Shown here in pieces: positions 35,139 to 40,834 of a DNA stretch of 64,000 bases; position 1 is the first letter of the stretch; each line of letters opens with the position of its first letter. The stretch is taken from positions 35,592 to 99,591 of IMG/VR virus record IMGVR_UViG_3300023242_000003. One strand, given 5' to 3'. The notes beneath the pieces are model-generated. The model had not been told where the DNA came from. It made no database searches and worked only from the letters and a program-made list of their open reading frames with translations. A program made the position numbers and the translations under genes. This DNA comes from a virus.

Positions 35139-35957
35139 ATGAATAGAGAGATTTGCCCAAAAGTTAAAATTATTATGAATCATTCGGTTAAAGAAGCTAA
35201 ATCTTTTGAGGATAATAAAGTTAGGCCAGAACATATAATTTTATCTATCTTGGTAGATAATGATAACGAATGTATCAAAGTGTTAAAACTGCTAAATATT
35301 GACACTGTTGATTTATATGATAGAGTATCTGATTTCTTACGGCAAACAGATTTAACCCCTAGAGTTACTAACACAACTAGGAAAACATTACCTTTTTCTG
35401 ATGAAACAAAGGCAATAATCAAAACGTTAGATGAAGAATGTGAAAAATTAAATGACAATACTATTGACACAACACATGTTATGTTAGGGATATTGTTTGC
35501 AAATTTACCAGTAAATAATCTACTTGGTAAATTTGGTGTTACATATAACCGTTTTAAAAAATCAATTACAGATATGAACAAAACCCAACCAAAAAACAGC
35601 GCACTAGGCGGTGAGGAAAATGAAGACCAAGAGTTTTACAAAAGAAACAAAAAAGAAACCGATACCAAATCTAAAACTGTTGTTTTAGATAACTTCTGTA
35701 GAGATGTTTCAAAATCAGTTGAGAAAGGTGAGATTGACCCAGTTGTTGGTCGTGAAAAGGAAATTAAAAGAATTTCCCAAATTTTATCTAGGCGAAAAAA
35801 AAATAACCCAGTTCTTATTGGCGAACCTGGGGTAGGTAAGTGTATTTGTTCTGATACTGAGGTAGTTATGAGAAATGATTTGACTGGAGAAGTGTTTAAA
35901 ACAACAATAAGTAATTTATTAAATACGTTTACCAACATCCCTTTAGAAAAACAATAA
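35139..35957 (+). CDS. ClpC-type unfoldase, N-terminal piece plus N-half of split intein 1, 272 aa
   Basis: Residues 1-~150 form the double Clp-N repeat ([13 protein letters not shown] and [12 protein letters not shown]). D1 begins with [18 protein letters not shown] and stops in the middle of Walker A at GEPGVGK (residue 234). From residue 235 the sequence switches to an intein N-block, [18 protein letters not shown], and ends after 38 intein residues. The Thr that should follow the Walker A Lys is the first extein residue of the next gene after its intein half. So this gene makes only the N domain and a fragment of D1 and needs trans-splicing. The first 20 residues are ordinary ClpC start sequence. 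Confidence 0.88.
35841..35954 (+). mobile_element. Split intein 1, N-terminal fragment (38 residues)
   Basis: Cys1 immediately after the D1 Walker A Lys. Only block A is present (CICSDTEVV); block B is in the partner gene, so the split lies between blocks A and B. This short-N layout matches the atypically split inteins described for other phage genes. Confidence 0.85.
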
Positions 35958-36097
35958 CAGTACAAGAAATGTGGGCTAAAGATAAAAGAAAAACTGATTT
36001 AGCTATATCTAAAGGATTGGTAATATGGGATTCAGAATATAGATGGGGAAATAGAGAAGAAATAATAAATAAATGTATTAAATTTTTAAATAAATAA
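35933..36097 (+). pseudogene. Remnant of a Vsr-like homing endonuclease
   Basis: In a frame overlapping the end of the N-piece gene, the translation ...VQEMWAKDKRKTDLAI then KGLVIWDSEY and EEIINKCIKFLNK runs to a TAA at 36095. Its end closely resembles the end of the complete endonuclease at 39229-39570 (DIINKCLGFLKK), and the D-x-R-K...L...G..V..W-D/E pattern fits Vsr/EDxHD-type nucleases. The N-terminal catalytic half is missing. It occupies the gap between the two halves of split intein 1. Confidence 0.7.
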
Positions 36098-36099
36098 AA

Positions 36100-36471
36100 A
36101 TGGAAGAATTAAAAAAAATAACTAAATCATTTGATATGTCTGATTTTAGTATCTTAACCGATAGTGGTTTTGTGAAACTTGAGAAACTACACGAAACAAT
36201 ACCTTATCAAGTATATCAACTTAACTTAAATGACGGAAAAGAACTTAAATGTGCGGATAACCATATCGTATTCTATAAAGATGATATGGAAGAGGTCTTT
36301 ATTAAAAATTTATTGGTTGGTGATAAAATCTGTGTTAATGGTGATGATAGTTTATCTGAAGTTGAGGTTATAGGTATAACCAATTTAGGTTACGAAGAGA
36401 TTATGTATGATTTTCAATTAACTGAGGGTTCTAATAGAAGATATTATACTAACGGAATATTATCACATAAT
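36100..36471 (+). mobile_element. Split intein 1, C-terminal fragment (124 residues)
   Basis: Carries block B (CADNHIVF), block F-like [11 protein letters not shown] and the terminal GILSHN before Thr+1. Very similar to the C-fragment at 39602-40036. Confidence 0.85.
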
Positions 36472-37578
36472 ACATCTATCGTTGAAGGATTAGCTCAATT
36501 AATTTATGACGGTAATGCACCTAGAACACTCCAAGGTAAAAAAATATACAGCCTAGATTTGGCTAGTATTGTTGCGGGTACAAAATATCGAGGACAATTT
36601 GAAGAAAGAATGAAAGCAATCTTAGAAGAATGTCAAGCTAACCCAGATGTTGTGTTATTTATTGATGAATTACACACAATTGTTGGTGCTGGAAACGCAT
36701 CTGGTTCTTTGGATGCGTCAAATATTTTTAAACCAGCATTAGCTAGAGGTGAAATTCAAATTATAGGTGCCACTACTTTAGATGAGTATAGAGAAAATAT
36801 CGAAAAAGATGGTGCGTTAACTAGACGTTTTCAACAAGTTCTTGTTGAAGAACCTACATTAGAGGAAACAAAAATTATTTTGATGAACATCAAAGAAAAA
36901 TATGAAAAACACCACAAGGTAAAATACACTGAAGAGGCTATTAATGAATGTGTAAAATTGGCTGATAGATATATCATGGATAGAAGTATGCCAGACAAAG
37001 CAATTGACGTGTTGGATGAAGCTGGTGCAACAACTAACATTAGTGTTGATAAACCAGAAATCATCAAAGAACTCGAAGAACAAAAACGTGTTATTAACGA
37101 TAAAAAAATAGATGTTGTTAAAAAGCAAAAATATGAGGAAGCGGCCAAACTCAGAGATGAAGAAAGAAAAGTAATTGAAAGTTTAGAACAAGCTGTTAGT
37201 GAGTGGCAATCTAAACTAGATAATAACATAACCGAAGTTGGTGTTGAGTTAATTTCTGAAGTTGTTTCTATGATGACTGGTATTCCTTTGACTAAAATTT
37301 CTACACAAGAAACTAAAAAGCTTATGGAGATGGATAAAAATCTTATGGGTAAAGTTATAGGTCAAGATGCTGCCGTTGCTAAGGTTGTTAAAGCAATTAA
37401 ACGTAATCGTATAGGTATAAAAGATAAAAACAAACCTGTTGGTTCTTTTATTTTCTTAGGACCAACTGGTGTTGGTAAGTGTATTTGTGGTGATACTCAG
37501 ATAGTTATAAGAAATAAAACTACTGGTTTAGTTGAGGAAATTGATATTAATGAATTAAAAAATAGAATAAAACATTAA
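36100..37578 (+). CDS. ClpC-type unfoldase middle piece with intein halves at both ends, 492 aa
   Basis: Residues 1-124 are the C-half of split intein 1, with CADNHIVF as block B and ending GILSHN. Thr125 then completes the D1 Walker A (GEPGVGK + T). D1 continues with [15 protein letters not shown] (Walker B) and [13 protein letters not shown]. The middle domain has a UVR-like motif, [15 protein letters not shown], typical of ClpC rather than ClpA/ClpB. D2 starts [15 protein letters not shown] and stops at its own Walker A GPTGVGK (residue 460), followed by a 32-residue intein N-half ([13 protein letters not shown]). Extein content is 336 aa. Confidence 0.88.
37480..37575 (+). mobile_element. 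Split intein 2, N-terminal fragment (32 residues)
   Basis: CICGDTQIV immediately after the D2 Walker A Lys; the frame ends at 37578. Closely related to the N-fragment of split intein 1 (CIC-D-T-V-RN pattern). Confidence 0.85.
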
Positions 37579-37643: not shown

Positions 37644-37790
37644 ATAAAAACAAGTAAAGGTGTAATTTGTGGTTGTTGCGGACAAAAAGCTAAACTATAT
37701 AAAAGAGAATTAACTCCTAATATGTGTATATCATTATTATATATGTTAAAGTTTTATAGACGTTCAAAATATAGATATATAGGTATATAA
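37638..37790 (+). CDS. Small Cys-rich protein, 50 aa
   Basis: ATG at 37638, TAA at 37788. Begins MKIKTSKGVICGCCGQKAKLY, with a tight Cys cluster (C-G-C-C) and a further Cys near residue 31, and is very basic. Its stop codon overlaps the start of the attC-like repeat. It may be a small metal-binding protein; expression is uncertain. Confidence 0.4.
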   Translation: MKIKTSKGVICGCCGQKAKLYKRELTPNMCISLLYMLKFYRRSKYRYIGI

Positions 37791-37876
37791 CGCTTAGTAT
37801 AAGATACGTTGCGACTTGCAACACTAAAATTTAGAATTATGAACAGAATTAAGCAATGGATTTTATACCGTGTTAT
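37787..37876 (+). repeat. attC-like imperfect inverted repeat, copy 1
   Basis: Ends are ATAACGCTTAGTATAA and TTATACCGTGTTAT, which pair except for a small asymmetric bulge, as in integron attC arms. An internal GTTGC/GCAAC hairpin lies between the arms. Copy 2 at 38267 has the same end sequences. Confidence 0.45.
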
Positions 37877-37912
37877 ATTCTTTTTTAATATTAATAAACT
37901 AAAATTACAAAA

Positions 37913-38260
37913 ATGAGTGAAACAGTACATTACAAAGGGGTTGCTATTAAAATTGAGCAACCGAATGACAAAACATTATTAGATGTTGCTAAAGGTATTT
38001 TAAAGGAAAGAAACTATGATATACCAGACTATGATAACGCTATTGAGTGTTTAACGAAAGAGTTTTATGAAGAGTTCTTTTACCACCCTAAAACACAAAA
38101 TCTATACAAGATAACAAAAGAAGGTCACGATTTAGATGAGGAAATAATTAAGGCTGATTTAATGGATGACGGAACTATTGTTTATGAGTTGAGATATTAC
38201 AACGGTGGTGCTGGATTTGAGGAATGTATGGAAGAGGCTTTTGATAAGCTCGATTCTTAA
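37913..38260 (+). CDS. Hypothetical protein, 115 aa
   Basis: Acidic alpha/beta protein with DYDNAIECLTKEFYEEFFYH and a repetitive Asp/Glu C-terminal half (GGAGFEECMEEAFDKLDS). It is bracketed by the two attC-like repeats, like a gene cassette. No family was recognised. Confidence 0.6.
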   Translation: MSETVHYKGVAIKIEQPNDKTLLDVAKGILKERNYDIPDYDNAIECLTKEFYEEFFYHPKTQNLYKITKEGHDLDEEIIKADLMDDGTIVYELRYYNGGAGFEECMEEAFDKLDS

Positions 38261-38266
38261 TTGCAT

Positions 38267-38315
38267 ATAACGAATAGTATAAAAAATCGTTTTAATGTTT
38301 TTTATACAGTGTTAT
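38267..38315 (+). repeat. attC-like imperfect inverted repeat, copy 2
   Basis: ATAACGAATAGTATAAAAAA pairs with TTTTTTATACAGTGTTAT apart from a two-base asymmetric bulge. Shares TATAACG-n3-AGTATAA and the TATAC-n-GTGTTAT end with copy 1. It may equally act as a terminator for the preceding gene. Confidence 0.45.
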
Positions 38316-38354
38316 GTACTGTATAGGCGAATTAAAACACAAAAATTATTAAAA

Positions 38355-39236
38355 ATGAGCGAGGGTAAAAAAGAAAAAATAAACGTATTATCATTGTTTG
38401 ATGGTATGTCTTGTGGACAAATAGCATTGAATAGAATAGGAATTGAATATGAGAATTACTTTGCATCTGAAATTGATAAGAAAGGAATTTTTATCACACA
38501 AAAAAACTTCCCGAATACAAAGCAATTAGGAAGTATAACCGAATTAAAAGGAAGTAGTTTACCTAAAATAGATTTACTATTTGGTGGAAGTCCTTGTCAA
38601 AGCTTTAGTTCTTTCGGAAATGGTAAAGGATTTGACGGTAAAAGTGGATTGTTTTGGGATTTCGTAAGAGTTTTAAAAGATGTAAAACCAACATACTTTT
38701 TATTAGAAAATGTTGTAATGAAAAAAGAATGGCAAGATATTATTACAGAAGCGTTAGGAGTTAAGCCAATACGAATAAATTCAAACCTTTTTTCTGCACA
38801 GAATAGACCGAGAACTTATTGGACTAACATCCATATACCTAAATTACCAAAAGAAAACAAGACAACAGTTTACGATATTTTAGAAACACCAAACTTTCAT
38901 AACAGTTACCCTAAATGGTTGCTTGGTAAATTTGGTAATAAAACAAGATTAGAACAGTTGTGGTACGCTGATGGAAAAGCAAGTTGTTTAACTTCAAATA
39001 TGCACAAAGGACAAAAATCAACTTTTACAAAAGACAGAAAAGAAAACATACATAGACTTACAGTATTTGAGTGTGAGAGACTCCAAACTGTTCCGTATGG
39101 TTATACAGAAGGTGTTTCAAATACTGATAGATATAAAATGCTCGGAAACGGATGGACAGTAGATGTAATTGCTCATATTTTTTCTTCTTTAAAAGGGGAG
39201 GAAATTTTTAATAATTTTTCTAACGAAAATGTTTAA
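38355..39236 (+). CDS. DNA (cytosine-5) methyltransferase, 293 aa
   Basis: SAM-dependent m5C methyltransferase. The motif order is complete: I NVLSLFDGMSCGQIALNRIG, IV GGSPCQSFSSFG with the catalytic Cys, VI LLENV, VIII NSNLFSAQNRPRTYW, then a target-recognition region and IX/X ERLQTVPYGYTEG with YKMLGNGWTVDVIAHI. The start chosen is MSEGKKEKINVL at 38355; an earlier in-frame ATG at 38295 lies inside the repeat hairpin. No cognate restriction enzyme is adjacent, so it is probably an orphan protective methyltransferase. It is cargo inside the split Clp locus. Confidence 0.9.
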   Translation: MSEGKKEKINVLSLFDGMSCGQIALNRIGIEYENYFASEIDKKGIFITQKNFPNTKQLGSITELKGSSLPKIDLLFGGSPCQSFSSFGNGKGFDGKSGLFWDFVRVLKDVKPTYFLLENVVMKKEWQDIITEALGVKPIRINSNLFSAQNRPRTYWTNIHIPKLPKENKTTVYDILETPNFHNSYPKWLLGKFGNKTRLEQLWYADGKASCLTSNMHKGQKSTFTKDRKENIHRLTVFECERLQTVPYGYTEGVSNTDRYKMLGNGWTVDVIAHIFSSLKGEEIFNNFSNENV

Positions 39237-39570
39237 TCGAAGCACGAATGTAGCACTTGCAGGTAACGAATTGTATTTTGCAACATATAAAAATGGGCTT
39301 AAAGATGAAACGGGTAAAAATAATGAATATCGTTTAGAACTAATTAATGGTGTTATATTACCCGATTTATTTTTAAAAAATAAGAAAAAAATAATTGAAT
39401 TTGATGGAACATATTACAATAGAAACACACCAGAAAATTCGTTAAGGGAAGATAGACGAGATAAAATGATATTAGAATCTGGATACGAAGTATTACATAT
39501 TAGTGAATCAGATTATAAAAAAAACAAACAAGATATAATAAACAAATGTCTTGGATTTTTAAAAAAATAA
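39229..39570 (+). CDS. Vsr-like free-standing homing endonuclease, 113 aa
   Basis: Compact nuclease with INGVILPDLFLKNKKKIIEF followed by DGTYYN, giving the PD-x(n)-E-F-D-G core, then REDRRDKMILESGYEVLHI and a terminal DIINKCLGFLKK. This matches the Vsr/EDxHD-related homing endonucleases reported between halves of split inteins (fractured-gene arrangement). It overlaps the methyltransferase stop by 8 nt and lies 31 nt before the C-piece of the Clp gene. It presumably cuts intein-free clp genes at the D2 Walker A site. Confidence 0.75.
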   Translation: MFNRSTNVALAGNELYFATYKNGLKDETGKNNEYRLELINGVILPDLFLKNKKKIIEFDGTYYNRNTPENSLREDRRDKMILESGYEVLHISESDYKKNKQDIINKCLGFLKK

Positions 39571-39601: not shown

Positions 39602-40036
39602 ATGGATAGAATAGAAGAAATTGAAAAAAGACTTGGTGATAATGTTTTATTATTTAATAAACATGAATTTGAATCACTTAAAAAAATAACAAAAACTACA
39701 AAAGTAAGTGATTATGAAGTATTAACCGATGATGGTTTTGTTGATATAGAAGCGTTACATGAAACAATTCCATATGAAGTATATAAACTTAAGTTAAGTG
39801 ATGGTAAAGAGATTAGATGTGCCGATAACCATATTGTATTTAATGAAGAAATGAAAGAAGTTTTCGTTAAAAATCTATCTATCGGTGATAAGGTAAAAGT
39901 TGACGTTAATTGTGTGTCATCCGAATCTGAAGTAGTTGAATTAACTAATTTAGGTTATGAAGAAATAATGTATGACCTTGAATTAAAAGAAGGTTCAAAT
40001 AGAAGATATTACACCAATGGTATTTTATCACATAAT
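39602..40036 (+). mobile_element. Split intein 2, C-terminal fragment (145 residues)
   Basis: Includes a ~20-residue N-terminal extension not found in the first C-fragment, then the same core: [27 protein letters not shown], and [14 protein letters not shown] before Thr+1. Confidence 0.85.
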
Positions 40037-40834
40037 ACACTTTTGGCTAAATTGTTGGCAGAACAAGTATTTGGTGATGCTGATGCTTTGGTAAGAATGG
40101 ATATGTCTGAATATATGGAAAAACATTCGGTTTCTAGACTTGTAGGTCCACCACCAGGATATGTAGGTTATGACCAAGGTGGTCAATTGACCGAAAAAGT
40201 TCGTAGAAAACCACATTGCGTTATTTTATTTGATGAGATTGAAAAAGCACACGAAGATGTGTTCAACATGTTGTTACAATTATTGGATGAAGGTATGCTT
40301 ACTGATGGTTTAGGTCGTAAAGTTAATTTCAAAAACGCACTTATCATCTTGACATCGAACATTGGTGTTAGAGAAGTTAATTCTTTTGGTAAAACAATGG
40401 GGTTTGAAACACCAGAAAATAGTGTAAACGAGGAAAACAAAGCACGTGCTATTATCGAAAAAGCTCTTAAGAAAAAATTCAAACCAGAATTTCTTAATCG
40501 TATTGATGAAGCGATTATCTTTAATAGTTTATCCGAAAAAGACATTCACGAAATTATATACTTAGAAATTGCTAATCTCGAAAAAAGAATTAGTGAGATG
40601 AATTACAAAATAGACATCAAAAAAGATGCTATTGAATTTATAGCTAAAAATGGTTATGATGAAGCTTACGGTGCTAGACCTTTGGCCAGAGCAATTCAAC
40701 ACTACGTTGAGGATGCTGTAGCTGATGAGATACTAAATGGTAATGTGAAAGAAGGTGAGACAATTGAAATTACACTTGACAAAGAAAAACAAGAACTGAT
40801 TTTAAAGGCTAAAAAAACCAAAAAAACTAAATAA
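39602..40834 (+). CDS. ClpC-type unfoldase C-terminal piece with C-half of split intein 2, 410 aa
   Basis: Residues 1-145 are the intein C-half (CADNHIVF block B, ending GILSHN). Thr146 completes the D2 Walker A (GPTGVGK + T). D2 follows with LVGPPPGYVGYDQGG, the Walker B CVILFDEIEKAHEDV, sensor 1 ALIILTSNIG and sensor 2 YGARPLARAIQ. An MGF tripeptide after sensor 1 corresponds to the ClpP-docking loop of ClpC (VGF in Bacillus), so docking to host ClpP is plausible. After both splices the protein would be 835 residues (234 + 336 + 265), a normal ClpC length. Confidence 0.88.
   Translation: MDRIEEIEKRLGDNVLLFNKHEFESLKKITKTTKVSDYEVLTDDGFVDIEALHETIPYEVYKLKLSDGKEIRCADNHIVFNEEMKEVFVKNLSIGDKVKVDVNCVSSESEVVELTNLGYEEIMYDLELKEGSNRRYYTNGILSHNTLLAKLLAEQVFGDADALVRMDMSEYMEKHSVSRLVGPPPGYVGYDQGGQLTEKVRRKPHCVILFDEIEKAHEDVFNMLLQLLDEGMLTDGLGRKVNFKNALIILTSNIGVREVNSFGKTMGFETPENSVNEENKARAIIEKALKKKFKPEFLNRIDEAIIFNSLSEKDIHEIIYLEIANLEKRISEMNYKIDIKKDAIEFIAKNGYDEAYGARPLARAIQHYVEDAVADEILNGNVKEGETIEITLDKEKQELILKAKKTKKTK

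Follow-up and report, generated by a model that had tools for sequence, protein, structure and literature searches.

A ClpB-like phage gene has a short open frame in its D1 gap, best explained overall, with a probability that we put at roughly 93%, as what is left of the 3' end of a homing endonuclease (HEN) gene. On this explanation the HEN gene once stood as an open reading frame (ORF) of its own, separating the two halves of a split intein placed at the D1 Walker A motif, and it homed and decayed as set out below. The window is the whole 64,000-nucleotide stretch of viral DNA analysed. Within this explanation, we infer the order of events, the loss of selection and active splicing. The elements of the clp gene are as follows.

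35139..35840, +, Clp/ClpB-like N-extein up to the D1 Walker A motif (GEPGVGK); Pfam Clp_N, E 1.3e-11; uninterrupted homologues in L001-L003 and others
35841..35957, +, N-intein 1 (...NTFTN) with six alien residues (IPLEKQ, from HEN DNA in another frame) and a stop
35929..35936, +, deletion junction ACCAACA^TCCC; left side as the N-intein end of L025/L035, right side as the HPFRK codons of A-type HENs
35933..36097, +, HEN fossil, A-type, Vsr-like, C-terminal ~54-55 codons; matches intact HENs; stop at 36097
35969..36097, +, sub-ORF with ATG within the D1 HEN fossil
36100..36471, +, C-intein 1, 124 aa, ending SHN and followed by a +1 Thr; Pfam Intein_splicing, E 1.9e-8
36472..37479, +, Clp middle extein, from the remainder of D1 to the D2 Walker A motif (GPTGVGK); Pfam AAA, AAA_lid_9
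37480..37578, +, N-intein 2; 82-87% identical to the D2 N-inteins of L015, L035, L036 and L057
37601..37661, +, 5' stub of the D2 HEN gene: leader, start (37638) and 8 codons, MKIKTSKG
37662..39261, +, foreign replacement or insert in the D2 HEN gene: phrog_2693-like truncated start, 115-aa ORF, C5-cytosine methyltransferase
39229..39570, +, D2 HEN remnant, 113 aa, B-type nuclease part only; homology from ~39262
39602..40036, +, C-intein 2; 67% identical to C-intein 1; Pfam Intein_splicing
40037..40834, +, Clp C-extein (D2 and D2-small); Pfam AAA_2, E 5.9e-57, and ClpB_D2-small

The endonuclease stub in the D1 gap

The frame at 35933-36094 encodes 54 residues ending ...EEIINKCIKFLNK, with the stop at 36097; it is open from about 35915 and has no internal stops across its 54 codons. 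It shares 65-81% identity with intact HENs of about 400 aa from related phages (71-78% over ~55 aa, 90-95 bits), its 3' end is 92% identical to a pseudogene in L035, and it matches phrog_22677, a family of HEN rather than intein type. Judged by these alignments, the likeness to HENs is no chance resemblance. The earlier note had recognized a decayed Vsr-like endonuclease here from the match of its end to the D2 protein; that match is present, if modest to weak (35% over 46 aa, E 3e-6 for the pair), and its 28.9 bits exceed the maximum of 26.2 reached in 500 shuffles over all targets. Pfam and NCBIfam returned nothing useful for the 54-aa stub searched alone, and the phages collection yielded only weak matches to Campylobacter phage CP21.

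The fossil corresponds to residues ~350-405 of the 406-aa HEN of L005 (P0010), downstream of the catalytic strands, so that only the last helices and one strand are kept and D319, E330 and H337 are all absent, in agreement with the earlier view that the catalytic half is gone. With the catalytic sheet and the DNA-recognition region both missing, the segment is a pseudogene and falls outside the EDxHD enzymes proper. Within the conserved strand it also bears a 9-bp in-frame deletion that removes three residues (GFDVLVIW to G---LVIW). It most likely has no function of its own.

We think it improbable that the segment has instead been retained as a small ORF (ATG at 35969, 42 aa) with a new function, as a peptide or as a translational-coupling leader for the C-intein ORF. 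Such a role would fit the 54 codons without a stop, the position of stop 36097 two bases before the C-intein ATG at 36100, and the retention of the HEN 3' end in L185 and, as a short tail, in L159. However, the C-intein ORFs of L075 (5-bp gap) and L007 (20 bp) do without any such segment, the 9-bp deletion strikes a conserved strand, and L035 retains a different set of HEN pieces.

Membership of a longer N- or C-intein has next to no probability and is already refuted by the sequence comparisons. The N-intein frame does extend 22 bases into the segment, but the fossil is read in a different frame, the N-intein of L025, L035 or L075 reaches the same final residue without it, the C-intein begins at a conserved ATG in relatives that lack it, and its matches are to HENs, which in relatives form a separate ORF. 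In those relatives N-intein 1 ends ...NTFTNT* (L025), ...NTFTNS* (L035) or ...NTITNN* (L075). In this phage its own stop has been lost, and the protein runs on through the tail IPLEKQ to a stop at 35957. At ACCAACA^TCCC the end of the N-intein gives way to the HEN codons for HPFRK, with about 2 nt of microhomology possible, which indicates that a single deletion (about 1.3 kb, judged by the L076 layout) took both the N-intein stop and most of the HEN. N-intein 1 therefore now ends in residues supplied by HEN DNA in another frame, and this stop borrowed from HEN debris is a concrete trace of how such deletions resolve.

The junction is known from a single metagenome-derived virus record, with no second copy, as would be expected if it were an assembly artefact and the real phage carried an intact HEN in the D1 gap. 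We regard this as very improbable: the stub bears a further 9-bp deletion of its own, no other matching HEN sequence is found in the record, and four other contigs (L185, L186, L187 and L196) have a like deletion from N-intein into HEN at D2, where N-intein 2 ends ...TDTQWRV* before a HEN 3' fragment. That D2 deletion is independent of the one at D1.

The D1 element is a split intein, with its N- and C-halves on separate ORFs and the splicing residues present: Cys1 (C at 35841), block B CADNH, block G SHN and a +1 Thr. Blocks B and G are invariant in 10 relatives. Since these residues are all in place, trans-splicing of Clp by the two halves is expected.

Intact HENs in relatives

Many relatives emerged when viral contigs were searched with three queries: the Clp N-piece, the C-intein and the HEN. 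Most clp genes of close relatives are intein-free. In others the same split inteins interrupt the gene at the Walker A lysine of D1 or D2; many of the intein-bearing relatives have an ORF of about 390-520 aa between the intein halves. Intact free-standing HENs, the arrangement of so-called fractured genes, occur at D2 in L005, L015, L046 and others and in the D1 gap in two phages (L072:8205-9650, 481 aa; L076:8173-9666, 497 aa), thus providing the intact D1 counterparts that the earlier note had suggested looking for. In L072 (L072:8031-13441) a single clp gene holds both D1 and D2 split inteins, each with an intact HEN (481 and 516 aa).

An AlphaFold model of the L005 HEN (P0010, 406 aa; 16-row alignment) places a restriction-like nuclease at ~275-406 behind a long helical region, with a mean pLDDT of 77 and about 90 in the nuclease. 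Foldseek matched this model, that of the relative rather than of the D1 stub, to Vsr (1cw0, 1vsr; probability 1.00) and I-Bth0305I (3r3p; probability 0.98), with E-values above 0.001; the top rows, mitoribosomal proteins of T. gondii, were set aside for their low TM-scores. By sequence, a profile of the B-type nuclease (see below) matched 3r3p at E 0.0055, and a profile of the full HEN had no match among PDB sequences. D319, E330 and H337 of P0010 are invariant across 16 HENs. On the strength of the model and the alignments, the ancestor of the fossil is an EDxHD/Vsr-like homing endonuclease, with cleavage of the intein-free target as its putative activity. In a search of genome contigs, no relative of the L005 HEN turned up, and the C-intein profile matched five distant loci (29-44%).

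Other occupants of these sites were also seen. At L005:11070-12143 the intact D2 HEN is followed, ahead of the C-intein, by additional small ORFs: the split-intein gap gathers cargo genes. In a third kind of D1 insertion, L037:3611-5562, the N-half is shifted (GEPG|CVLGDT), the HEN (392 aa) is differently composed and the C-intein is distant. At the D1 GVGK used by the split inteins, L008:8650-9795 and L038:3960-5110 carry a different, contiguous intein of ~365 aa that starts with Ala and resembles the LAGLIDADG type (motif LLGDGH).

The HEN nuclease domains fall into two clades, A and B (100/98), each present at both D1 and D2; this phage has an A-type remnant at D1 and a B-type one at D2. 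Over their N-terminal ~110 residues the D1 HENs (L035, L072, L076) cluster (98/97), apart from the D2 HENs. This suggests, from few D1 sequences on long branches, that nucleases may have been exchanged between HENs whose N-termini track the target site.

HEN decay at D1 and D2, with probable homing

The state of the D1 HEN differs among phages: it is intact in L072 and L076, decayed in this phage, L035 and L079, and undetected in the remaining D1 loci. L035 has a longer pseudogene, with two in-frame stops in codons 1-89 followed by a jump to the last 30 codons. Gaps of 5-58 bp without a HEN occur in L075 (5 bp), L007 (20 bp), L071, L041 and L166; a possible HEN tail of ~20 bp in L036 is low-complexity and suggestive only. 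Mapped on the C-intein tree, HEN state requires at least 10 changes. Among the loci of the C-intein profile scan, intact HENs were found at 2 of 10 distinct D1 places versus 15 of 20 D2 places (Fisher p 0.007), counts to be read in the light of non-independent sampling and of a scan seeded with D1 C-inteins.

Comparison with L035 bears on how the intein arrived. The two phages are ~97% identical in nucleotides over both intein halves (92/95 and 359/372) versus 64-85% over the Clp exteins (116/150 and 37/50 in the flanking exteins), and the jump from ~75% to ~97% falls exactly at the insertion site on both sides, a homing signature. Each phage retains HEN parts missing from the other, implying independent deletions, and as neither remnant can be derived from the other, the common ancestor had more of the HEN. 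Recent homing would thus have preceded separate decay of the HEN in the two phages. None of the relatives found has an intact D1 HEN that joins, exactly as the ancestor would have, an L035-type N-terminus to an A-type nuclease; the HEN of L072 has that N-terminus with a B-type nuclease, and that of L076 is distant.

The history we favour for this phage would begin with the homing of a cassette of N-intein, HEN and C-intein by cleavage of an intein-free clp gene. With the site filled, selection on the HEN would have ceased, and its start, its DNA-recognition region and its catalytic sheet could then have been lost in a ~1.3-kb deletion running from the stop codon of the N-intein to a point within the nuclease domain. 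The N-intein would have adopted an out-of-frame stop inside the fossil, gaining its six-residue tail. Both intein halves would stay intact because they must still trans-splice Clp.

The D2 gap holds a second broken HEN. The ORF at 39229-39570, which the earlier note had taken for a complete and active endonuclease, encodes 113 aa versus 391-491 aa in intact relatives (491 aa in the L015 homologue, P0011), and lacks the complete recognition region and intact active site of a working HEN. Its position 64 is Asn where intact HENs have an invariant active-site His, probably the equivalent of His69 of Vsr. In Vsr this residue forms an active-site pair with Asp51; FASTKD4, a Vsr-like protein with Asn at the position, is thought to lack nuclease activity (PMC11879112). 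Of the 5' end only MKIKTSKG is left; the leader and 5' stub are 83-89% identical in nucleotides over ~100 bp to L005/L046/L056/L057, the match ending after AGTAAAGG(T). The middle of the gene has been replaced by a truncated phrog_2693-like start, a 115-aa phrog_6035-like ORF (37913-38260) and a C5-cytosine methyltransferase (38295-39236), foreign ORFs that were found in none of the relatives' gaps. Relatives of the methyltransferase that are 86% identical lie outside clp in L207/L208. The 99.6-kb genome record has no other match to the D2 HEN, and a scan for relatives of the 113-aa ORF as a free unit found none. By these comparisons the ORF is a HEN remnant and not an active enzyme. D2 HENs are usually intact in relatives.

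With the D2 ORF also broken, the contrast of an active enzyme at D2 with a fossil at D1 fails for this genome. Nor are the two gaps different stages of the same thing: the nuclease tree puts the D1 and D2 remnants in separate clades, which rules out two stages of a single HEN. The notion of stepwise HEN loss holds across phages, which show intact, pseudogene, stub and absent states, but not between the two gaps here.

How far decay can proceed is indicated by L168 (L168:2129-5170), which has a single-ORF Clp and a contiguous D2 intein without a HEN that falls within the D2 split clade. It may be a split intein re-fused after HEN loss, although the tree could be polarized either way. We offer tentatively, and consider rather doubtful, a directional cycle in which an intact HEN undergoes 5'-biased deletions until the halves nearly abut and a contiguous mini-intein (L168, possibly L194) results, with in-gap HENs swapping nuclease modules between sites and keeping site-specific N-termini. 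In such a cycle the HEN 3' end would be spared because it abuts the C-intein start.

Relation to known systems

What we describe is the standard homing cycle in a split intein of the fractured-gene kind: the biology is expected and its novelty modest. Its interest lies in a comparative series in one phage gene, with the HEN intact, nonsense-ridden, reduced to a stub or a tail, absent, and possibly followed by re-fusion, the intein halves being predicted functional; it also corrects the tempting misreading of the short 'Vsr-like' ORF beside the methyltransferase at D2, which is a HEN remnant. Within the partial coverage of our literature search, no account of such an arrangement or decay in phage clp was found.

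AceL-TerL and VidaL are atypically split inteins with short N-halves. The inteins here share with them an N-intein that ends soon after block A, but they interrupt Clp and have a HEN at the split in relatives.

Fractured genes are split inteins with a free-standing EDxHD HEN between the halves (Dassa et al. 2009, as cited in PMC3229294 and PMC10448857). As in that arrangement, a split intein here divides a phage gene in two, and relatives have a Vsr-fold HEN ORF lying between the halves. The present case differs in that one ClpB-like gene bears two such inteins (D1 and D2 Walker A), both with dead HENs, and in its early split, with an N-half of about 38 aa and a C-half of 124 aa.

I-Bth0305I, an EDxHD homing endonuclease (PDB 3r3p, PMC3943268), is encoded in a group I intron. 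The HENs of the relatives are likewise extended multi-domain proteins with a Vsr-like nuclease domain at one end, but they lie between split-intein halves, and the D1 stub keeps only the last helices and one strand.

In the homing cycle of Goddard and Burt (reviewed in PMC1654191, PMC7765530 and PMC3229294), invasion is followed by degeneration of the HEN. The clp inteins appear to follow this course, the HEN decaying after invasion while splicing is predicted to be kept; they depart from it in being split inteins in one phage gene, in presenting several stages of decay, and in a possible end state as a contiguous mini-intein (L168).
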